The translations under genes were made by a program, and so were the position numbers. This document shows, one piece after another, positions 2,072 to 22,263 of a stretch of DNA of 35,032 nt; positions within the stretch are counted from its first letter, which is position 1, and every line of letters begins with the position of its first letter. Under the pieces are notes generated by a model. That model was not told the origin of the DNA. It made no database searches and was given only the letters and a program-made list of their open reading frames with translations. The stretch is from Armatimonadota bacterium (GTDB lineage: Bacteria > Armatimonadota > Chthonomonadetes > Chthonomonadales > CAJBBX01): positions 1 to 35,032 of the forward strand of contig JAPLCQ010000027.1 in NCBI GenBank assembly GCA_026392115.1, read 5' to 3'.

Positions 2072-2097
2072 CCGCCATCATGGCAGGGGAGCGTGCG

Positions 2098-3408
2098 ATG
2101 CGACGAACGGCTTGGGCGGCGCTGGGGCTTCTGGTTGTGCCGGCGTTGTCGCCCGGTGCGGCGGCGCAGACCTCGCCCGATGCGTGGCGGGTAAACTTCC
2201 GCGCCGACGGAACCCCGGCGCCCCTTCGCGACCCGGCGGACCGCACCCTCTGGCCCAACCGCTGGAGCCGGGCCAACTCCGACGACTGGATCGCGGCCAA
2301 CCACGACCGCATCCGCCGTATGCGCCCGCGCCTGCTCCTCATCAACCTCTCGAACCAGGTGAAGCCCGAGAAGCCCATGCAGCTCTTCGAGCAGCTCCGC
2401 GCCGCCGTCCGCGAGGGTAGCCGCTACCACGGATACAAGAACCCGAAGGCCCCGGTCTTCCTGGACTACACCGTCTGGCGCTACGTCGACGCCCGCGACC
2501 CCGGCATCGACAAGGGCAACTGCGTCGCCGCGCCCCGCAAGCCCAACGTGCCCAGGGACGAGCTCAACTGCGACTACGGCGGCTTCTTCAGCGAGGCCTT
2601 CGCCGCCGTCATCGGGGTGCGCGACCCGAAGGAGCCGCAGCGCTTCCTGCGCCTCGATGAGCTGGTCGATCAGGGCTACGTCCACGAGGTCTGGTTCACC
2701 GCCGCCCCGTCGGGCGACTTCCGCTGCCTGGAGTGCGTCGAGGAGAAGCCGGTCTACGACGAGCGCTTCCGCAAGGTCCCCGGCAAGTGGGTGCAGGCCG
2801 GCAACGGCGGCGACGACCAGCAGAAGTGGACCGGCCGATCACTCCGCATCAATGGCCTCAACGACGAGCGCGGCATCGGCTGCGGCATGGAGAACCTGGC
2901 CCACTCCTTCGAAGGAACGGCCCACAGCCGGGCTATCCCATACTTCACGCGGTACTTCCACGAGTTCGGCGGCTTCGACCTGGACAAGCGCTACGGCCTG
3001 CCGTTCGACTCCTTCTACGCCCTCTGGGGTCAGGGTAAGGGGATCGAGTACCCCGCGCCCGACGAGGCCCTCGTGAAGGACGGCGAGAAGCGCTGGACCC
3101 TCAAGCCCTACGCCGCCCCGGCGGGCAACGTCCACTTCCCGCCCAACGGCCGTAGCCACTACGACCAGGCCAACACTCAGCCTGTCCTATCCACCATAGA
3201 GGACTGGCGCATCGGCTCCGGTCCCGGCGGCAAGGACCTCGCCAAGCCCTGGACCAACGCGGTCCTGGAGCCCTACGCCAGGCTAGCCCCCGACTGCATG
3301 GGCAAGTGGCTCGTCTACTGGCGCCAGAACGTCCCCGGCTACCAGAACAAGGCCAGGGACGATCAAGGCAAGCGCATGAAGAACTGGTGGGTGTTCTTGT
3401 TCTACTGA
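2098..3408 (+). CDS. Exported protein of unknown function
   Basis: I do not recognise this 436-residue protein. An N-terminal Sec signal peptide (MRRTAWAALGLLVVPALSP, cleaved near GAAAQ) shows that it is exported. The mature part is rich in Trp, Tyr, Pro and Gly. It has several Cys (GNCVAAP, LNCDYGG, RCLECVEE, GIGCGM, PDCMG) that could form disulfides outside the cell. A His/Glu-rich stretch, GCGMENLAHSFEGTAH, is followed by FHEFGGFD; it could bind a metal or form an active site, but this is speculation. There is no membrane helix after the signal. An ATG at 2080 is also in frame, but the strong ribosome site AGGGGAG (2085-2091) six bases before ATG 2098 decides the start. It stands alone, divergent from RNase J and convergent with the six-hairpin glycosidase. 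Confidence 0.8.
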   Translation: MRRTAWAALGLLVVPALSPGAAAQTSPDAWRVNFRADGTPAPLRDPADRTLWPNRWSRANSDDWIAANHDRIRRMRPRLLLINLSNQVKPEKPMQLFEQLRAAVREGSRYHGYKNPKAPVFLDYTVWRYVDARDPGIDKGNCVAAPRKPNVPRDELNCDYGGFFSEAFAAVIGVRDPKEPQRFLRLDELVDQGYVHEVWFTAAPSGDFRCLECVEEKPVYDERFRKVPGKWVQAGNGGDDQQKWTGRSLRINGLNDERGIGCGMENLAHSFEGTAHSRAIPYFTRYFHEFGGFDLDKRYGLPFDSFYALWGQGKGIEYPAPDEALVKDGEKRWTLKPYAAPAGNVHFPPNGRSHYDQANTQPVLSTIEDWRIGSGPGGKDLAKPWTNAVLEPYARLAPDCMGKWLVYWRQNVPGYQNKARDDQGKRMKNWWVFLFY

Positions 3409-5061: not shown

Positions 5062-7986
5062 TCACTTTTCGACGCCGAACTCAAGCTCGTTGGCCCAGTG
5101 GGTCGCCCAGTCGTTGTGGAAGGTGAGCGGGTTGTCCTTCGAGACGCTCCTGCCCGCCGCAAGCTCCATGGCGCCGCCTTCGTTGCTCCGAAACGTGAAC
5201 TTGATCGTGCCTCCCGACCTGAGCCTGGCGGCGACCTCGGGCATGGTGTCCAGCGGAATGGCGCACTCCAGCGTCGTTCCGTCGAACACCAACCTGGCTC
5301 CCGCAACGGGCCCGCCGTCGACCGGCGCCCTGGGTTGGCGCGGGTAGAAGTGTTTTCGCGGCGCGCCGACGCGGGCAAGGCAGAAGACCTCCGTGCCGCC
5401 GTCCTTGCACTTGTTCAGCGCGAACTCGTAGTCCGTGTCCTGGTATGCGCAGAAGCGGGGCATGGCGCCTGCCGGGTAGGGAAGCATGTCGGGCTTCCGA
5501 TCCTCCGGGATGACGTTGAGCGCAATCTGCAGGTTGTGCCCGGAGGGGATATCCGGGTCCTTGCGGTATGAGAACCGGCGGACGCCCGAAGGCCAGGTCC
5601 GCTCCTTGCCGGCATCGGTGGCCTTCTCCGGGTAGAAAAAGCTGTCGTCGTCACGCGTCGCGTAGCGGATGGTCTCGGCGACGGCGGGCGCCCTGGCGGC
5701 GAAGTAGAGATACCGGTCGTCGAAGCCGACATAGGCTTCGATCGGGGCGGCGCTGACCTGCTTGCTCCAGTCGCGGAACGGCAGGTAGGCCTGCTCGCTG
5801 ACACTGGCGCCCACGGCCTGTGCGCACGTCTGCGGTATGGCGCCCTTCCAGTCGTCCAGCCCGCCGTCCACGGCGATGGTGCGCCGCGATATTAGGTTTA
5901 CGTGCATCCTCTCGGCATGCTCGACCCGGCCTGCCGGCCCCTCAAACGTGGCTACCAGCGGGTAGGTGTTGTCGTCGCGTGCGGCTCCGCCCGTGACCGT
6001 GAAGGCGAACTCCCGGCTCTCGTTCGCCGCCAAGCGTACGGCCTGCTGGGCTCCTGCCAGGTTCAGGCCCTCCATCCGGCCGGACAGCCTGCCGGTGATG
6101 GGGCGATTCAGGACGTTGGTCAGCTTCACCCGAACCGAGGGGCGAGCGGCCACCGGTGCGGTCATATCCCATGCGACGATCTCGACGGGATCGATGCCCT
6201 TGATGACGGCGGATCGCACTGCCGAGACCAGCTTGGCGAAGGAGCCGGGGCTTCCGTTTGACCGAAGGAAGGCGCCGAGCCCGTTCAGCGGTACCGTGAT
6301 CTTGCCGCCCGACGAGGGGACCGGGTTGCCGTAGAAGTCATGGAGTACGAACAAGCCGCCGCCGTCGGGGATCACCATGGTCGCATCGGCCCGGACGGCA
6401 ACAGACCGGAACTGGCAGCGGTTCCGCTCGTAGGTCTGCCGCAGGTCGCCGACGACCACCAGCGTTCCGTCGTCCGGGTCGATGGGCCCCGTGCGGGCGC
6501 CGCCGACCTTGCGCGGAAGTCCCGAGAACGAGAAGACCCACGGAAGGCCGTTCTTGAACAGCACCTCCTTGAACTCGCGCTGGCCGATCAACCGGTTGGC
6601 CGCCGCGATCGCCGCGCCCGGCGCCCAGACCTGGCAGACGGCGTACTCCTTGCAGTCGATCCGCGGCTTCTCGGACGTGTCCACGTTGCCGTAGTAGATG
6701 CCCGCCGTCCGATCCTGCCCCATGGCGCGCATCGACGCGATCACGGCGGCCACCCGGTCGTCGCTGTTGCCGACCCAACTCTCGGTGTCCCAGACGCGGA
6801 CACGGCCGTACGCGCCCTTCCTGTCCATCCACTTGCGGACCAGAGCCGGGTCGGCGGCGAGCGGCTGATAGTGGATGCTGACGAAGTCCAGCAACGGCAG
6901 GAACTCGTCGGTCCCGTCGCAGAAGAGCTTGTCACGCGTGTTGGTGGACGAACAAGCCCCGCCGACCATCACCTTGACCCCGGCCTCGCGGCGCGCCTCG
7001 AGGACCGCCTCGGCCATGACCCGGTATATCTCACGGAAGCGCAGGCAGTCGGCGCCCCAGCCGGAGATGGAGACGCCCTCCCACGGCTCGTTCCACAGCT
7101 CGACGGCGTTGACCGGTCCCCTGGGCCAACCGTGCTTGATCAGCACGTCCTTCAGGTACGCCTTGAACTGCGGGTCATGCTCGGGCTTCCAGGCCAGGTC
7201 CTCCTTCTCCCCGTTCCGCATGCTGCCGTCGGCGTTCAGCCAGGGCCGCCCGCGGCCCATGGGCATCCACTCCGCCGGCGTGCCACCGGCTCCCACGGTG
7301 AACATCAGTGTGATGTCGTTCGCCAGCGCCCAGTCCGTGTGGGCGTCGGCGATGGTGTTGTAGCCGCCCTCCACGCGGGCGCCTTTGATGCCCATCTTCT
7401 TGAACGCGTTGAAGACCTGGGGCGACATCTCCCCCGGCCAGCCGAGGTCCATGGCGAAGGTGGGCATGAACACCCGACCCGGCTCGGCAGCCACGGTCCG
7501 GCAGCAGGTAGCGCCGAAGAACCGGCCCTTGCCGGGCAGGTCCAGCACGATGGCATAGCCGCCGAAGCGATCGCCGATCCTCGGCCGAATCGTCACAAAG
7601 CCGCCCTGCTCAGGCAGGTTGACGTCGACCGTGGTCGAGCTCGTAACGGCGATCCTGAACACCTGCGGTTTCCACATATCGCCGGCCATGGCCCGAGTGC
7701 CGTACTGGACGACGTCGAACCGTGCTCGCCCCTTGTAGCCGCCGGCTACCTTCACATGGAACGTAACGGCTGCGGTCTCTCCCGGCCAAAGGACGTTCGC
7801 CGTAGGCTTACCTGACACCTCGAACGATGTCTCCTGAACCACCACGTCCTTGCCCGACAGGCCGAATGCGGATGCGAAGCCGTCCATGCCGCTTCCAGTG
7901 ACCATCTGAGCCGGCGCGCGGCCCGATACGGCCAGGAGCGAGCACAGGCCGGCCCGCACTATCCAGGTGATCGTGTAACGTGGCAT
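5062..7986 (-). CDS. Exported clan GH-A glycoside hydrolase with C-terminal CBM9-like domain
   Basis: This 974-residue exported protein has a signal peptide (residues 1-27, ending RAPAQ), then an N-terminal beta-sandwich (~45-170). A TIM-barrel glycosidase domain of the clan GH-A type (GH5/GH39/GH30-like) spans ~175-500. WNEP places the acid/base Glu at residue 300, and WDTES places a candidate nucleophile Glu at 402; SIHYQP near 370 is also typical. Beta-rich domains follow, and residues ~700-974 resemble a CBM9/DOMON-like sugar-binding domain (IAVDGGLDDWKGA, then AYVGFDDRYLYFAARA). The start ATG 7986 follows GGAGG closely. It lies 49 bp after the GH2 gene and 63 bp before the six-hairpin gene, so co-transcription is likely. 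Retaining glycosidase activity is inferred; the substrate is not identifiable. Confidence 0.85.
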   Translation of the reverse strand: MPRYTITWIVRAGLCSLLAVSGRAPAQMVTGSGMDGFASAFGLSGKDVVVQETSFEVSGKPTANVLWPGETAAVTFHVKVAGGYKGRARFDVVQYGTRAMAGDMWKPQVFRIAVTSSTTVDVNLPEQGGFVTIRPRIGDRFGGYAIVLDLPGKGRFFGATCCRTVAAEPGRVFMPTFAMDLGWPGEMSPQVFNAFKKMGIKGARVEGGYNTIADAHTDWALANDITLMFTVGAGGTPAEWMPMGRGRPWLNADGSMRNGEKEDLAWKPEHDPQFKAYLKDVLIKHGWPRGPVNAVELWNEPWEGVSISGWGADCLRFREIYRVMAEAVLEARREAGVKVMVGGACSSTNTRDKLFCDGTDEFLPLLDFVSIHYQPLAADPALVRKWMDRKGAYGRVRVWDTESWVGNSDDRVAAVIASMRAMGQDRTAGIYYGNVDTSEKPRIDCKEYAVCQVWAPGAAIAAANRLIGQREFKEVLFKNGLPWVFSFSGLPRKVGGARTGPIDPDDGTLVVVGDLRQTYERNRCQFRSVAVRADATMVIPDGGGLFVLHDFYGNPVPSSGGKITVPLNGLGAFLRSNGSPGSFAKLVSAVRSAVIKGIDPVEIVAWDMTAPVAARPSVRVKLTNVLNRPITGRLSGRMEGLNLAGAQQAVRLAANESREFAFTVTGGAARDDNTYPLVATFEGPAGRVEHAERMHVNLISRRTIAVDGGLDDWKGAIPQTCAQAVGASVSEQAYLPFRDWSKQVSAAPIEAYVGFDDRYLYFAARAPAVAETIRYATRDDDSFFYPEKATDAGKERTWPSGVRRFSYRKDPDIPSGHNLQIALNVIPEDRKPDMLPYPAGAMPRFCAYQDTDYEFALNKCKDGGTEVFCLARVGAPRKHFYPRQPRAPVDGGPVAGARLVFDGTTLECAIPLDTMPEVAARLRSGGTIKFTFRSNEGGAMELAAGRSVSKDNPLTFHNDWATHWANELEFGVEK

Positions 7987-15121: not shown

Positions 15122-18100
15122 ATGCTAGTTCGTTCGGCCTGCATCGCGGCGACTGTCGCCCTCTTTTCCATGCTGGCGGCGCCGAAGCCCGCGAAGCGCC
15201 CGGCGGCCCCAAAGCCCACGCTCACCATGGGCGCCTGGTACGTGGCAGGGCCGTTCACGCCCACCGAGGGGCGCGGATTCGCCGTGGAGTTCGGGCCGGA
15301 GCGCTCGGTCTCGTGCGCCGAGCCCGTGGCCGGCGTCAGCTGGGTTAAGCGCGACATGCCGGACGGCCAATCGCACGATCTGGGCCTGCCGGACAACGGC
15401 TCCGCCTACCTGATGCGGACCATCACCTCGCCTGCGGCGCGCACGGTCATGGCGCGGTTCGGCAGCGATGACGGACTGGCGGTCTGGCTCAACGGCGTGC
15501 GCCTGCTGGCCAACGATGTCCCGCGTGTGACCGCGCCCGATCAGGACAGCCTGTCCCTGCCGCTCCGGGCCGGCGAGAACCGATTGCTCCTGAAGGTCTA
15601 CAACATCTCGGGCGGCTCGGGCTTCTTCTTCCGCCTCGACGGCGACGCGTCGGCGGGCGATGTCATCGATCCCGTCTCGGCTGTGGCGGGCTTTCCGGTA
15701 CCGGCCCTGCGCCGCGCCATTCGCGACCTGATGGCTCAGTATGGCGCGGGCTACCCGAAGGGCGCCGCCTACCTGGCCAGGATCGACAGGCTCTGCGCGG
15801 TGATCGGCAAGGCGCCCGAAGGAGGCCGCGACGCCGCCGTTGCCGAGTTGGCGGCCCTGCGGCGCGAGGCCCTGCTGGCCAACCCGCTGCTCCGGTTCGA
15901 CAAGCTGCTCCTCGTGCGCCGCTCCGAGCGCCAGATGGGCCTGCCGCAGAACTGGCAGGGCAACTCCTCCATCCCCACCCGCGGCTACGATAACCGCATC
16001 GAGCGGCTCTCCATCGCGACGGGCGCCCGGTCGGTGGTCTACCAGCCCGAGAACGGCGCATTCGTAGGCGACCTTGAGCCGCACTGGGATGCGCGCCGGC
16101 TGCTCCTCTCCATGCCCGGGACACACGGCCGCTTCCAGCTCTTCGAGATGCCGATCGAGGGCGGCGAGCCCCGGCAGGTGACGCCGGGCGAAGAGCCAGA
16201 TGTGGACAACTACAGCGGCGCCTACCTGCCCGACGGACGGATCGTCTACTGCTCTACCGCGTGCTATCTGGGCGTGCCCTGCGTGAGCGGCTCCGACAGC
16301 GTGGGCTCGCTCTACCTGCTCGATCCGAAGCTGGGCACGGCGCGGCAACTGACCTACGACCAGGACCACAGCTGGTACCCGCGCGTGCTCAACAACGGTC
16401 AGGTCATCTACACGCGCTGGGAGTACAGCGACACGCCGCACTACTTCTCCCGCCTGCTCTTCAAGATGAACCCGGACGGCTCGAACCAGATGGAGGAGTA
16501 TGGCTCGAACAGCTTCTGGCCCAACTCGCTCTTCTATGCGCGGCCCGTGCCCGGCCATCCGAGCAAGCTCACGGCCATCGTCTCGGGCCACCACGGCGTG
16601 CCGCGCATGGGCGAGTTGGTGGTGCTGGATCCCGACCGCGGCCGCCACGAGGCCTCCGGCGTAGTGCAGCGCGTGCCCGGCTTCGACAAGCGCGTGGAGC
16701 CGATCATCCGCGACCAGCTCGTGGAGACATCGTCGCCCCGCTTCCTCCATCCCTTCCCGCTCAGCGACAAGTACTTCCTCGTCTCCTGCCAGCCTGCCGG
16801 GCGGCCCTGGGGCATCTACCTGGCGGATGTGTTCGACAACCTCGTCTGCCTGGCCGAGGAGCCCGGGTACGCGCTGCTGGAGCCCGTGCCTCTGGTGGCG
16901 CGACCCATGCCGCCGGCCACGCCCGACCGCGCCAAGGTCGCCCAGAAGACGGCCACGATCTTCCTGGCCGACGTCTACCGCGGTCCGGGGCTCAAGGGCG
17001 TGCCGCGCGGAACCGTGAAGTCGCTGCGCGTCTACGCCAACCATTACGCCTACCGCGGCATGGGCGGTCATGTGAACGTGGGTATCGACGGCCCCTGGGA
17101 CGTGAAGCGCATCCTCGGCACCGTGCCGGTAAACGCCCACGGCTCGGCGCTCTTCACCGCGCCGGCGAACCTGCCGCTGGTTGTGCAGCCGCTGGACGCC
17201 GAGGGCAAGGCTCTTCAGGTCATGCGCTCCTGGTACACGGCCATGCCCGGCGAGTTCGCCACCTGCCAGGGTTGCCACGAGCCGCAGAGCAGCGCGCCCG
17301 GCCTGCGGCGGCCCCGGCCCGAGGGGATGGTCCCGGCCAAGATCGCGCCCTGGTTCGGCCCGGCGCGTGGCTTCAGCTTCGAGCGCGAAGTGCAGGCTCC
17401 GGTGCTGCAACGCTACTGCGTCAGCTGCCACAACGGCGCGCCGGGTCGACCGGACCTCCGCGCCCGCGCCGCGGTGGTCAACTACCGAGGCGCCTTCACG
17501 CCCGCCTACGAGGCCCTGCACCGCTTTGTCCGCCGCCCCGGCAACGAGAGCGACTACCACCTGCAGCGCCCTCGCGAGTGGGACGCCGGCACGAGCGAGC
17601 TGATCCAGATGCTCAAGAAGGGCCACCACGGCGTGAAGCCGGCGCCCGAGGCCTGGAACCGCCTCTACACCTGGATCGACCTGAACGTGCCGTGCCATGG
17701 GACCTGGACCGCCCAGAACGGCGCCGCGCCCGAGCGCAACCGCCGCATGTTGGAGCTGGCGCGGAAGTATGGCGGCTCGGATATCGACCACGAGGCCATG
17801 CCGTCCGATCCTCCGCCATCGGCCGAAGTGTCGCCCTTGCCCGAGGCCCCGGCGCCGCCGGTCCCCGCCAATCCCGCCGGATGGCCCTTCGGACCCGACG
17901 TCGCCGCGCGCAAGCAGACGTCCCACAGGGCACCGCGCGTGGTGGACCTGGGGAATGGCGTGAAGTTGCGGCTCACCTACGTGCCGCCGGGCGCCTTCGT
18001 CATGGGGTCGAACAACGGCGCGCCGGACGAGCGCCCCATGGCCGCGCGGCGCGTGGAGAAGGGCTTCTGGATGGCCGTCACGGAGACGACCAACGCCCAG

Positions 18101-18754
18101 TACGCCCGCTTCGACCCGCGGCACGACAACGGCGTCATCGGCATGCGTAACAAGGACCACACCTCGCGTGGCTATCCCATGGATCGCCCGAACCAGCCTG
18201 CTGTCCGGGTCACCTGGGCCGAGGCGGATCGCTTCGCCCGTTGGCTCAGCCGGAAGACGGGGCTGCAGTTCGACCTGCCCACGGAGACCCAGTGGGAGTA
18301 CGCCTGCCGGGCCGGTAGCGCGGAACCCTTCTGGTTCGGCGGGCTGGACACGGACTTCGGCCGCGCGGCCAACATGGCGGATCAGAGCCTTACGGCGCTG
18401 GCCGTGGCGGGCATCGATCCCAAGCCCGTGCCGAACCCCGATCCGCTTCTCGACTGGTCGCCCAAAGAGATGCGCTTCAGCGACGGCGCCCTGCTGCCGG
18501 CCGATGCCGGCTCCTTCGCGCCCAACCCCTGGGGCCTGCATGACATGCACGGGAACGTGGCGGAATGGACGCGCTCGGCCTACACGCGGCGGCCCGGCGG
18601 CGGCGATGCGCCCACGGACCCGGCAGCCGAGCGTGTCGTGCGCGGCGGCAGTTGGTACGACCGTCCGGCCCGCTGCACGGCCTCGTACCGCCTGTCCTAC
18701 GCCCCGTGGCAGACCGTCTACAACGTGGGATTCCGGGTGATCTGCCGGGAGTAG
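15122..18754 (+). CDS. HzsA-related di-heme protein fused to a C-terminal FGE-like (SUMF1) domain
   Basis: This 1210-residue exported fusion begins with a signal peptide (residues 1-20). A PA14/galactose-binding-like domain (~35-175) follows, then a helical stretch and a propeller-like region with TolB-type repeats (~255-600). A hydrazine-synthase-alpha-related segment (~605-860) has the typical LADVYRGPGLKGVPRGTVK and MRSWYTAMPGEFATCQGCHE. Two c-type heme motifs are visible: CQGCH (715-719) and CVSCH (766-770). After a Pro-rich linker, ~940-1210 is an FGE-sulfatase domain (MGSNNGAPDERP, LPTETQWEYACRAG, DMHGNVAEWT, VRGGSWYDRPARC, GFRVI). Against human FGE, Cys336 is replaced by Asp1180 while the Cys341 equivalent (Cys1185) remains, so normal formylglycine formation is doubtful. 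GGAG lies nine bases before the ATG. True hydrazine synthesis is not implied; redox or structural roles are possible. Confidence 0.88.
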   Translation: MLVRSACIAATVALFSMLAAPKPAKRPAAPKPTLTMGAWYVAGPFTPTEGRGFAVEFGPERSVSCAEPVAGVSWVKRDMPDGQSHDLGLPDNGSAYLMRTITSPAARTVMARFGSDDGLAVWLNGVRLLANDVPRVTAPDQDSLSLPLRAGENRLLLKVYNISGGSGFFFRLDGDASAGDVIDPVSAVAGFPVPALRRAIRDLMAQYGAGYPKGAAYLARIDRLCAVIGKAPEGGRDAAVAELAALRREALLANPLLRFDKLLLVRRSERQMGLPQNWQGNSSIPTRGYDNRIERLSIATGARSVVYQPENGAFVGDLEPHWDARRLLLSMPGTHGRFQLFEMPIEGGEPRQVTPGEEPDVDNYSGAYLPDGRIVYCSTACYLGVPCVSGSDSVGSLYLLDPKLGTARQLTYDQDHSWYPRVLNNGQVIYTRWEYSDTPHYFSRLLFKMNPDGSNQMEEYGSNSFWPNSLFYARPVPGHPSKLTAIVSGHHGVPRMGELVVLDPDRGRHEASGVVQRVPGFDKRVEPIIRDQLVETSSPRFLHPFPLSDKYFLVSCQPAGRPWGIYLADVFDNLVCLAEEPGYALLEPVPLVARPMPPATPDRAKVAQKTATIFLADVYRGPGLKGVPRGTVKSLRVYANHYAYRGMGGHVNVGIDGPWDVKRILGTVPVNAHGSALFTAPANLPLVVQPLDAEGKALQVMRSWYTAMPGEFATCQGCHEPQSSAPGLRRPRPEGMVPAKIAPWFGPARGFSFEREVQAPVLQRYCVSCHNGAPGRPDLRARAAVVNYRGAFTPAYEALHRFVRRPGNESDYHLQRPREWDAGTSELIQMLKKGHHGVKPAPEAWNRLYTWIDLNVPCHGTWTAQNGAAPERNRRMLELARKYGGSDIDHEAMPSDPPPSAEVSPLPEAPAPPVPANPAGWPFGPDVAARKQTSHRAPRVVDLGNGVKLRLTYVPPGAFVMGSNNGAPDERPMAARRVEKGFWMAVTETTNAQYARFDPRHDNGVIGMRNKDHTSRGYPMDRPNQPAVRVTWAEADRFARWLSRKTGLQFDLPTETQWEYACRAGSAEPFWFGGLDTDFGRAANMADQSLTALAVAGIDPKPVPNPDPLLDWSPKEMRFSDGALLPADAGSFAPNPWGLHDMHGNVAEWTRSAYTRRPGGGDAPTDPAAERVVRGGSWYDRPARCTASYRLSYAPWQTVYNVGFRVICRE
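18718..18754. other. Tail-to-tail overlap of two convergent genes
   Basis: The plus-strand di-heme/FGE gene ends with TAG at 18752-18754. The minus-strand FGE/lyase gene ends with TAG at 18720-18718. The final 37 bp therefore code on both strands: the conserved GFRVI end of one FGE domain and the last dozen residues of the lyase fusion. There is no intergenic space and no obvious terminator hairpin, so their transcripts must overlap. Confidence 0.85.
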
Positions 18755-21700
18755 AGCGAGCCGCGCGCAGCCGGGACCGCGAACCAGGCGGCCCGGCTGC
18801 AGGCGGCGTGGCCGGCGAGGCCCTCGGCGGCGATGACCTCGGCGTCCTGCAGGTCCACCTGCCACAGCCTGCCGCGCAGACCGGCGGGGACGGGCGCCTC
18901 CACCGTGAATGTGTAGGCGGCGTTGTCGCCGAAGTCCACGAACCGCCTGCCCAGCGCCGCGATCGATCCGTCCGGTCGGCTGATTACCGCTCCGTGGAAG
19001 CCCTCACCCTTGGCCCTGAGCGTCAGGCGGATGCGCTTCCCCGTGGCGGCGCAGTAGACGCGGGGCACGAGGCGGTCGAGAACCCCCAGGTCCGCGAGTT
19101 CAACGACCCGCGGCATGGCCCTGTCGGTGACGATATCCCATCCCTGGGACTGCTTCGAGGTCAGGGCCAGCCGCAGCACGCGCCCCGCCCGGCCTGCGGG
19201 CACTCGCACGGTCCGGCGCATACCTGCCTCCGCCGAGGCGCCGAACCCGATGAGGGCCACGGTGCGTCCTGTGGCCGTGAGAAGGCAGGTCGCCGGGTCG
19301 AGACTGCCGTGGCGTATGACGGCGATGCGGAACGGCCTGCCGGTCCTGTCCAGGATCGCCACGCCGGCGGATGGCCGCGCCAGATGCGTCAGGTAGAGCC
19401 CATTGGCGGTGTCGCACTGCGCCGGTGTGAGGCGCAGGGGGGATGGGCCCGTCGGCGCCATGCCGAGGCGCTTCAGGAACGGCAGGAAGCGGGTGGCGAA
19501 GAGCGTGCTGTCGGGTCCCCATTGGCGCGTGCCCAGGTACTCCTGAGTCGTCTCCCAGGTGCGCTCCGCGTTGTCGAGGAACCGGGCGTCACCCGTGCGG
19601 TCGTAGGCCCACGCCAGGCTATCCAGCGTGCGCCCGGCATACTCGGGACGGAAGCCCAGCGTGCGCTCGGCCAGGCGCAGCGCCATGGTGGCCGCGCGTT
19701 CGTCGCCGGTGGCGTCGTAGGCCTCGCGTAGGCCGGCCATGGCCAGGCCGTTGAAGAAGGCGATGCGGTTGTCGTAGCGGATGGCGAACTTGCCGGAGGG
19801 CTCCTGACCCGCCCAGAGGCGGTCCACCAGCGCCCGGATGCCCGCAAGGCAGCGCTCGTCGCCATGGGCCGCGTAGACGGCCGTCAGCGCGTAAAGGCTC
19901 CAGCCGATCTGGCGCTCGTTGCCCACGCCGCGGTCATGGACCAGGTCGTCGGCGATGCGCAGTCCGATCTGGTGGGCCACGTCGAGGCCGCGCCGGTCGC
20001 CGGTCAGATGCCACCAGGCGATGAGGCCGCGCACGAAGACATGGCCCAGTTCGGCCTCGGTCTCGGTGTGCCGCGGGCTGTGTTTCCACGGCAGGCCGGT
20101 CTCATGGTTCGTGTCGATATCGGCCTGGTGCCTTGCCGCGGCGATGGCGGCCCGCAGGACGCGGAGGTTGCCGGTCCGCGCAAACTGCATGGCGAAGTCA
20201 TACGGAATGTCGTATTCAAGGTTGGCGTAGGCGTTCTTGCCTTTATAGGGCCCGCCGAGGTAGGCGTCGCCCCAGTTCCGGAAGCCGTAGGGGCGCTTGC
20301 GGATCCAACGGTCGAACTCGGCGGCCACGCGCGTCTCGTAGGTGGGGAAGCGATCGAGGTCATAGGGGGCCAGGTCGCCCAGCGCCCGCGAGCCGCAGTA
20401 CCATTCGGGGCTTGCCACTGCCATGAGCGGCGCCTGCAGGGCCTTCAGCCGCTCGACGCACGGCTCCAGACCAGACGTCGCGGCGATGCGGAAGCGGAGC
20501 GTCTTGGCGATGCCCCGGTCGGCCTCGAAGGGCTCGCGACTCCCGTCGAAACCGATGCTGAGCCGCCGGCCCTCGACCCTGATTGCGGTGGGGGCCTGCT
20601 GCCAGAACTCCTCCATGGCGATGCCGATCCACCGGTCGCCGCAGCGAAGCGCGATCCAGCCCGGCGCTCGGGTCCACGCGGCGTCGGTACGTCCGGCAAC
20701 GCGCACGCGGCAGGTCTCAGAGTCGATCTGCTCAAGCAGCAAGGAGGACGCGGCCCTGCCCGCAAGCCGGATGCCGCCGTTCGGGCTTCCGAGCATGGTC
20801 GCCACGGGCGTGGCCGGTAGCTCCGTCTCCAACTGCCAGCCCGTCAGCGAAGCCATGGCGACCGCGCCGCGTCGCGTCAGCGTGGCCGTGATGTCGGAGG
20901 CGGCGCCGTCCGCCGAGCAGAGGCGCCGGTCGGCGGCAAGCTGGAAGAGGGGCTCGCCTGCTCCGAACGTGATCGGCTCGACCGCATCGCGTCCGGGGCG
21001 AGGCTGTACGGTCTGGTTTCGGCCATCCGCGGCGACCCGCCACCGGATCGCGTCGAGGGCCGCCCGGAGTGCGGCGACCGGTTGCGGCATCGGCGCACGC
21101 CGTCTCGCTTGGGCGTTGGTCACCAGGCGCACGGTGGCCGTCGCGCCCGCGCCCACGCTTGCGGCGAACTCAAGCAGGGCCCATCGCACGCTGCCGTCCC
21201 GCCATCGATCTGTCATGGACGCGGTTAGCGGTACGGGCCGACCGTTCGCCCCGAGCAGCGCCAGTCGTCCGACGTCCTTCACGCAGCCCTGCGGGAAGGG
21301 CACGCCGCTACGGATGATCTCACCGTCGCGCCGTACGCCGGCCTCCTCGGTGATCGTGAGCGGCGCCGATGCGGCTCGCGGCGGCGTGGCGGCGACCCGT
21401 GGAGCGTGCGTAGGGGCCGGGTCCTCAGCGGTCACGACGGGTCGCTGCGACTGCGCTTGCGACTGGTCGTCGGCCGCGCAGCGGAAGCCCGTCCCATCGT
21501 AGCAGCCGTACGAGACGGCACGGCCCCGGTCGAAGGTGCGGCCCAGGTTGGGCGCGCCGTAGTAGCCGATGGCCCCGCCGCCCCTCAGCACCTTGTACTT
21601 GCGGCCATACTGCACTGAGAGCGGCGAGAAGACCGTGGGGCCCATGGCCAGGGTGGCCCGGTCGGTGCGCGGTCCCGTCTCCGGATAGGGGCCATACCAG

Positions 21701-22263
21701 TCCTGGACCCACTCCCAGACGTTGCCGCTCATGTCGAGGCAACCGAACGGCGAGGCGCCAGCCACGAACCGCCCCACGGCGCCCAGCGCCGGCTCGTCCT
21801 CCAGCGCGGCCAGGCCGGTGGGCGCCGATTCGCCCCACGGGTAGGTTCTGCCGTCGGCCGATCGGGCGGCGTACTCCCACTCGGCCTCGGTGGGCAGCCG
21901 CTTGCCGGCCCAGGCGGCGTAGGCCGCGGCATCGTGCCAGGTGACGTTGGTCACCGGCCACCGTTCCCGCCCCGGCCGGGGCGCTCCGCCGCGCCATGTG
22001 ATCGGCGCCTTGTGGCCCGTCGCCCGGCAGAACCCCGCGTACTCGGCCTGCGTCACCTCGCACTCGTCGATCCAGTACGGGCGCAGCGTCACCTGATGTC
22101 GCGGGTAAGCGTCCGGGCTATCGGCCGCGTCCGCGCCCATGGTGAACGTCCCGCCCGGTACGCGCACCATGCCGTCGCGTCGCCCGGCGGTCGGTCCCTG
22201 CGCCAGACCCGCGGCGTAGAGGAGCGCCACAACACACAAGAGAGGTTGGATCATGTCGGGCAT
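18718..22263 (-). CDS. N-terminal FGE-like domain fused to exo-rhamnogalacturonan lyase-like (PcRGLX/YetA-type) protein
   Basis: This 1181-residue exported fusion has a signal peptide (~4-22), then an FGE-sulfatase domain (~30-265: MVRVPGGTFTMGA, ECEVTQAEYAGFC, RLPTEAEWEYAAR, DMSGNVWEWVQDWY, GTGFRCAAD). The active-site segment reads VLRGGGAIGYYGAPNLGRT with neither catalytic Cys. A Pro/Ala linker (~266-300) leads to a region like PcRGLX/YetA: an N-terminal RIFT-barrel-type segment (SGVPFPQGCVKD, DRWRDGSVRWALLEF), a beta-sandwich, and an alpha/alpha toroid (~590-960, e.g. DIDTNHETGLPWKHSPRHTE). A final beta-domain follows. Members act on rhamnogalacturonan; activity here is inferred. The ATG lies two bases past the GH127 stop, suggesting coupled translation; a second ATG at 22254 is possible. 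Its last 13 residues are encoded opposite the end of the di-heme gene. Confidence 0.8.
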   Translation of the reverse strand: MPDMIQPLLCVVALLYAAGLAQGPTAGRRDGMVRVPGGTFTMGADAADSPDAYPRHQVTLRPYWIDECEVTQAEYAGFCRATGHKAPITWRGGAPRPGRERWPVTNVTWHDAAAYAAWAGKRLPTEAEWEYAARSADGRTYPWGESAPTGLAALEDEPALGAVGRFVAGASPFGCLDMSGNVWEWVQDWYGPYPETGPRTDRATLAMGPTVFSPLSVQYGRKYKVLRGGGAIGYYGAPNLGRTFDRGRAVSYGCYDGTGFRCAADDQSQAQSQRPVVTAEDPAPTHAPRVAATPPRAASAPLTITEEAGVRRDGEIIRSGVPFPQGCVKDVGRLALLGANGRPVPLTASMTDRWRDGSVRWALLEFAASVGAGATATVRLVTNAQARRRAPMPQPVAALRAALDAIRWRVAADGRNQTVQPRPGRDAVEPITFGAGEPLFQLAADRRLCSADGAASDITATLTRRGAVAMASLTGWQLETELPATPVATMLGSPNGGIRLAGRAASSLLLEQIDSETCRVRVAGRTDAAWTRAPGWIALRCGDRWIGIAMEEFWQQAPTAIRVEGRRLSIGFDGSREPFEADRGIAKTLRFRIAATSGLEPCVERLKALQAPLMAVASPEWYCGSRALGDLAPYDLDRFPTYETRVAAEFDRWIRKRPYGFRNWGDAYLGGPYKGKNAYANLEYDIPYDFAMQFARTGNLRVLRAAIAAARHQADIDTNHETGLPWKHSPRHTETEAELGHVFVRGLIAWWHLTGDRRGLDVAHQIGLRIADDLVHDRGVGNERQIGWSLYALTAVYAAHGDERCLAGIRALVDRLWAGQEPSGKFAIRYDNRIAFFNGLAMAGLREAYDATGDERAATMALRLAERTLGFRPEYAGRTLDSLAWAYDRTGDARFLDNAERTWETTQEYLGTRQWGPDSTLFATRFLPFLKRLGMAPTGPSPLRLTPAQCDTANGLYLTHLARPSAGVAILDRTGRPFRIAVIRHGSLDPATCLLTATGRTVALIGFGASAEAGMRRTVRVPAGRAGRVLRLALTSKQSQGWDIVTDRAMPRVVELADLGVLDRLVPRVYCAATGKRIRLTLRAKGEGFHGAVISRPDGSIAALGRRFVDFGDNAAYTFTVEAPVPAGLRGRLWQVDLQDAEVIAAEGLAGHAACSRAAWFAVPAARGSLYSRQITRNPTL

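Follow-up and report, generated by a model that had tools for sequence, protein, structure and literature searches.

A hydrazine synthase alpha-like di-heme protein fused to an FGE-like domain in an Armatimonadota bacterium and its relatives

The window analyzed here, 35,032 bp of contig JAPLCQ010000027.1 (assembly GCA_026392115.1) from an Armatimonadota bacterium, carries on its forward strand an open reading frame (15122-18754) of 1210 amino acids whose third-position GC content (0.91) is coding-like. The protein joins in one chain a di-heme part resembling the alpha subunit of hydrazine synthase (HZS), the key enzyme of anammox, and a domain resembling the sulfatase-activating formylglycine-generating enzyme (FGE, SUMF1). 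Pfam recognizes PF18582 (HZS_alpha) at residues 630-720 (94.1 bits against a cut-off of 26.6) and PF03781 (FGE-sulfatase) at residues 953-1207 (143.7 bits against 23.3), and PF18582 was matched by all 33 of the fusions submitted to the same search. Judged by eye, the protein start resembles a Sec signal, and export is predicted. The AlphaFold model, which covers residues 22-1210, has a mean pLDDT of 87.7 and a pTM of 0.81. In comparisons with two sister species, all domains proved to be under purifying selection, with ratios of nonsynonymous to synonymous substitution (dN/dS) of 0.04-0.11 across the heme and FGE parts. An earlier, sequence-only reading of this gene had described a di-heme, HZS alpha-related protein with a propeller-like region, fused to an FGE-like fold; the Pfam matches, the model and the conservation of both heme motifs agree with it, and the modeled propeller matches that of HZS alpha. 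The same reading had named the N-terminal domain sugar-binding-like. A beta-sandwich is indeed predicted there, and carbohydrate-type domains occur in some other fusions (NPCBM in six of 33, LamG in two and F5/8 in one), but the N-terminal domain of the window protein has no Pfam match.

Relatives were sought in 84,980 species genomes, which gave 384, and the best 80 of these were fetched; the query was made up mostly of fused proteins, and this best-80 set is no estimate of the frequency of the fusion in the whole family. The HZS alpha-like and FGE-like parts lie in one frame at 78 of the 80 loci, and the remaining two loci are cut by contig ends. The hosts belong to the Armatimonadota, Planctomycetota, Hydrogenedentota, Verrucomicrobiota, Kiritimatiellota and Sumerlaeota, together with one record labeled Nitrospiraceae. 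The join is also intact in the two sister species, whose proteins are 93-95% identical to that of the window; the nearest named relatives are metagenome genomes labeled uncultured Chthonomonas sp., with 94-95% identity over the part of this protein that was searched. In the tree, the fused proteins form a single clade (SH-aLRT 100), in which L039, L046 and L047 bear the FGE motif and L085 and L131 end at contig edges, and the true anammox proteins group separately. The draft state of the assembly (181 contigs for a 5.7-Mb genome) speaks for an artefact of assembly or sequencing that joined two genes, a possibility raised already in the sequence-only reading. Its probability is negligible, and we rule it out, because the identical join recurs at 78 of 80 independent loci and is intact in both sister species. 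The fusion is genuine and old. Locus L041 (169-4658), the sister lineage of the fused clade, encodes the two parts in separate genes coupled by TGATG, with signal-like stretches near the starts of both. Because the second gene has such a start of its own, both parts seem, from these sequences, to act together outside the cytoplasm, whether L041 represents the pre-fusion state or a later split.

The two CxxCH motifs are conserved in all 75 orthologous fusions, at a spacing of 50-52 residues. The solved structure most similar to the model is HZS alpha (PDB 5c2v chain A; Z score 33.1, root-mean-square deviation 2.9 A over 557 residues), and the match, spanning residues 256-866, takes in the propeller and both heme domains, the middle and the cytochrome-c domain. 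Aligned by profile to eleven HZS alpha sequences from anammox organisms (probability 99.7%), the protein has both CxxCH motifs in register. No anammox genome above the cut-off was found within the class of L127; a phylum-wide search yielded them.

Nevertheless, we reject hydrazine synthase proper as the identity of this protein, because Tyr591 is absent and the family score lies far below the cut-off. Profile alignment puts Ser723 at the Tyr591 position, where 68 of the 75 fusions have Asn or Ser, and the family model NF052339 (hydrazine synthase alpha) gives 36.7 bits against a cut-off of 800, compared with 1351-1642 for full-length anammox proteins. Tyr591 is the iron ligand of heme I in hydrazine synthase (PMC12607021; main text of PMC12758564). 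The place aligned with the zinc ligand Cys303 holds no Cys in what is a loose propeller alignment, and a distinct, invariant Cys387 is present. For His772, the distal ligand of heme II in HZS, the profile alignment picks His836 and conservation picks the invariant His835. The non-anammox family, fused and unfused alike, has a conserved set of its own, consisting of Cys387, RW(E/D)YxD at 432-437, His491, Met701-Arg702, Glu711 and the Glu after the first CxxCH. This set is mostly missing from hydrazine synthase and suggests, as far as residue conservation can tell, that these proteins share one way of using heme I, distinct from that of hydrazine synthase.

PF18582 is matched 18 times in the source genome, on contigs C7, C27, C29, C34, C42, C55, C74, C87, C91, C97, C108, C116, C150, C152 and C153. 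Three of the 18 carry an FGE-like domain, namely the window gene, one gene on C91 and one on C34 that is cut by the contig end. Another genome of the phylum has 26 PF18582 genes, and most other sampled genomes of the family and order have none.

In the FGE-like domain, the motif RGGSWYDRPARC aligns without gaps to the copper-binding Cys336 and Cys341 of FGE and assigns Asp1180 and Cys1185 to these positions, as the sequence-only reading had done by eye. Among the 75 fusions, the Cys336 position is occupied by Asp (71), Thr (2), Glu (1) or Ala (1), and the Cys341 position by Ala (61), Cys (10), Ser (3) or Gly (1). The copper pair occurs in none of the 75, and FGE-type copper chemistry leading to formylglycine is therefore unlikely on these alignments, in line with what had been expected. 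The further idea that the one Cys left amounts to half an active site has to be abandoned: with Ala so prevalent at this position and Cys in only ten fusions, Cys1185 is, to judge from the alignment, a lineage variant. At the two positions the C91 paralogue has Thr and Ala, and none of the genome's SUMF1-family domains alignable at this motif has a Cys pair.

The C-terminal part of the model is closest in fold to PvdO (Z score 30.0, root-mean-square deviation 2.1 over 232 residues), followed by TvpA (29.4), PorK (26.2) and FGE (25.6), and PvdO is also the best solved relative by sequence (E-value = 3e-16). This kinship speaks for the main rival explanation, in which the FGE-like domain would be an active, PvdO-like oxidase pocket and the hemes would carry off its electrons, the whole being an oxidase complete in itself, electron relay included. 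At the Cys336-equivalent position PvdO has a glutamate, which we take to be essential, and Asp1180 of the window protein aligns with it. However, PorK, a secretion-ring protein, has Asp at the same position, so that by sequence the acidic residue alone does not separate an oxidase from a structural protein. PvdO is required for the oxidation of dihydropyoverdine, and the purified protein was inactive, with no cofactor detected; the study did not settle whether PvdO depends on an electron partner (PMC6206403). An active pocket of this kind is in our view unlikely, given that the PvdO family model NF051459 yields only 84.1 bits against a cut-off of 500 and that the C91 paralogue has Thr at the Asp1180 position. 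In PorK and TvpA, whose folds match this domain no less closely than that of FGE, FGE-like folds have structural or binding roles, and the protein might alternatively be a non-catalytic sensor, scaffold or electron-transfer protein, whose hemes would shuttle electrons and whose FGE-like part would bind surfaces in the manner of PorK/GldK or of variable C-type-lectin proteins. The charged and aromatic residues that are invariant in the propeller and close to heme I go beyond the needs of a pure scaffold, and we consider this explanation very unlikely.

Table 1. Positions of the fused gene, its domains and key residues, and the convergent neighbor in the window
Feature	Position	Strand	Basis
Whole gene: HZS alpha-like di-heme protein with FGE-like domain	15122..18754	+	Open reading frame, family searches, orthologs
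Signal-peptide-like start, residues 1-24	15122..15193	+	Sequence by eye; amino acids identical in both sister species
N-terminal beta-sandwich, residues 35-185, possibly carbohydrate-binding-like	15224..15676	+	Model strands
Beta-propeller, residues ~256-608	15887..16945	+	Model; HZS alpha match over 256-866 (Z 33.1)
Cys387, propeller	16280..16282	+	Kept in 75/75 fusions and 41/42 unfused relatives
RWEYxD motif, residues 432-437	16415..16432	+	In fused and unfused non-anammox relatives; not in anammox HZS alpha
HZS_alpha middle domain PF18582, residues 630-720	17009..17281	+	Pfam
Heme c motif I, CQGCH, residues 715-719	17264..17278	+	Conserved in 75/75
C-terminal cytochrome-c domain, residues ~751-866	17372..17719	+	Model; alignment with HZS alpha
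Heme c motif II, CVSCH, residues 766-770	17417..17431	+	Conserved in 75/75
His835-His836, at the HZS His772 position; candidate distal heme II ligand	17624..17629	+	His835 in 75/75; profile alignment
Pro-rich, fast-evolving linker, residues 867-935	17720..17926	+	dN/dS 0.21-0.25, highest part in both comparisons
FGE-like (SUMF1/PvdO-like) domain, residues 953-1207	17978..18742	+	PF03781; PvdO Z 30.0, FGE Z 25.6
Asp1180, FGE Cys336 position	18659..18661	+	Asp in 71/75 fusions; Glu in PvdO
Cys1185, FGE Cys341 position	18674..18676	+	Cys in 10/75, Ala in 61/75
Convergent neighbor: SUMF1-like domain with PcRGLX/GH127-like parts	18718..22263	-	37-base overlap with the 3' end of the gene

Around the window gene lie glycoside hydrolase (GH) genes of families GH2, GH32, GH95 and GH127 and the gene of a second SUMF1-like protein. 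The latter (PF03781, 171 bits), fused to a PcRGLX-like and a weak GH127-like part, is the convergent neighbor of Table 1, and its overlapping arrangement is retained in both sister species. Two further long, coding-like reading frames, 2080-3408 (+; 442 amino acids) and 5062-7986 (-; 974 amino acids), have no Pfam match. From these surroundings the sequence-only reading had drawn a link to glycan degradation, and the protein would then be a sugar-oxidizing helper of the glycoside hydrolases nearby. The NPCBM, LamG or F5/8 domains of some relatives fit such a role, and a like idea has been proposed for planctomycete cytochromes with carbohydrate-binding domains (PMC5615132). The glycan genes are, however, local to this genus and not retained around the relatives, among whose 98 co-directional neighbors carbohydrate-active families are rare and a beta-gamma-like gene recurs. 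These neighbor statistics weaken the helper as a general role, the link to glycans is weak beyond the locus itself, and we regard the explanation as highly unlikely.

The recurrent gene lies downstream and encodes about 640 amino acids, comprising a propeller and, C-terminal to it, a di-heme MauG/peroxidase-like part. In profile comparison it matches HZS beta (E-value = 1e-45) and HZS gamma (E-value = 6e-39), and it matches the NCBIfam beta-gamma fusion family below the cut-off. The modeled propeller is closest to HZS beta (Z score 44.5; next match 35.3); the gamma-like part of the model is of low confidence, and its gamma-like identity comes from sequence profiles only. The gene follows on the same strand at 17 of the 59 fused loci with enough flank to be testable, often overlapping the fused gene. 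At L090 (5032-13618), L092 (4942-13625) and L126 (5926-13227), the alpha-FGE fusion, a second alpha-like gene and the beta-gamma-like gene stand nearly end to end. No HZS beta- or gamma-like gene was found in the window. This genome's only clear beta-gamma-like gene is on contig C108, beside another HZS alpha-like paralogue: at C108:26080-30896 (L033, L171) it lies directly ahead of an HZS alpha-like gene of 1356 amino acids without an FGE domain. Eight genomes of the phylum (L164-L177) have one or two clear beta-gamma-like genes each, which are not always near a fused alpha gene.

Taken together, these data lead us to read the protein, with a probability of about 55%, as an exported, alpha-like oxidoreductase with two c-type hemes that belongs to the hydrazine-synthase-like family and bears an FGE-like binding or assembly module. 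A redox role, as had been suggested from the sequence, is likely. In the mechanism that we propose, heme I, between the propeller and the middle domain, would be the working heme, in a site that differs from that of hydrazine synthase through the lack of the Tyr591 iron ligand and through the family's own conserved residues. Heme II, in a presumably His/His-ligated cytochrome-c domain, would pass electrons to or from a partner, which in many relatives is probably the neighboring beta-gamma-like protein with its propeller and di-heme MauG/peroxidase part; the complex would therefore resemble hydrazine synthase in build and may act on another small substrate. The FGE-like domain, without the copper cysteines, may serve as a recognition or assembly module of the C-type-lectin type.

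Several points weigh against this interpretation. The AlphaFold models contain no heme, and among the heme regions confidence is lowest (pLDDT about 51) in the loop that follows heme I. The earlier reading had named a model without bound-heme geometry around residues 715-770 as a refutation; the predicted fold does not bear this out. At 42 of the 59 testable fused loci no beta-gamma-like gene is present in the examined flank, and in the window organism, too, the gene stands alone. The nearly invariant Asp1180-Arg1181-Pro1182 fits catalysis as well as binding, and a biochemical test of any member was not found in the literature searched. A bolder form of the oxidoreductase reading, which we think quite unlikely, would make the fusion the alpha subunit of a heme complex that is widespread, as yet undescribed, similar to hydrazine synthase and new in its chemistry. 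In it, the beta-gamma-like di-heme protein would produce a reactive intermediate, to be consumed by the alpha-like heme together with an FGE/PvdO-like pocket in the same polypeptide.

To our knowledge, hydrazine synthase was long believed to be without relatives. A large sister family is now seen to share the alpha build, in many genomes next to a beta-gamma build that is also shared; within this family, one old clade has acquired a domain from a second oxidase-like family. The reaction, once found, would show the chemistry from which hydrazine synthase may have arisen, and would give a function to a family that this genome carries in 18 copies and some others in at least 20. Each of the two parent families is already known; their combination is a widespread variant that was not found in the literature searched, in which no paper combined HzsA and FGE-sulfatase. 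Hagglund et al. (2025; PMC12758564) described, in the main text, HZS alpha homologs of non-anammox bacteria in clades I-IV, and also homologs of alpha and of beta-gamma adjacent to each other in bacteria other than anammox.

Among known systems, FGE shares the PF03781 fold, whereas the fusions are without its Cys pair. PvdO (PDB 5hha) and the Treponema variable protein TvpA are closer in fold than true FGE. Like the window protein, PvdO is exported and has an acidic residue at the Cys336 position; unlike it, PvdO is a single domain without heme, and the window protein falls below the PvdO family cut-off. The planctomycete-specific cytochromes (PSCyt1-3; PMC5615132) are c-type cytochromes too, expanded in related bacteria and equipped with carbohydrate-binding-like domains, but are built from different domain families; none of the PSCyt Pfam domains was among the families matched by the window protein up to an E-value of 0.1. 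The non-anammox homologs of Hagglund et al. have PF18582, lack the HZS active-site residues and in some cases adjoin beta-gamma-like genes, as here, but the main text mentions no FGE or sulfatase-type domain or extension (PMC12758564). HZS alpha itself has the same succession of propeller, PF18582 middle domain with heme I and C-terminal cytochrome-c domain with heme II; its heme motifs are 102 residues apart, against 51 in the window protein, which has Ser in place of Tyr591 and adds the FGE-like domain.

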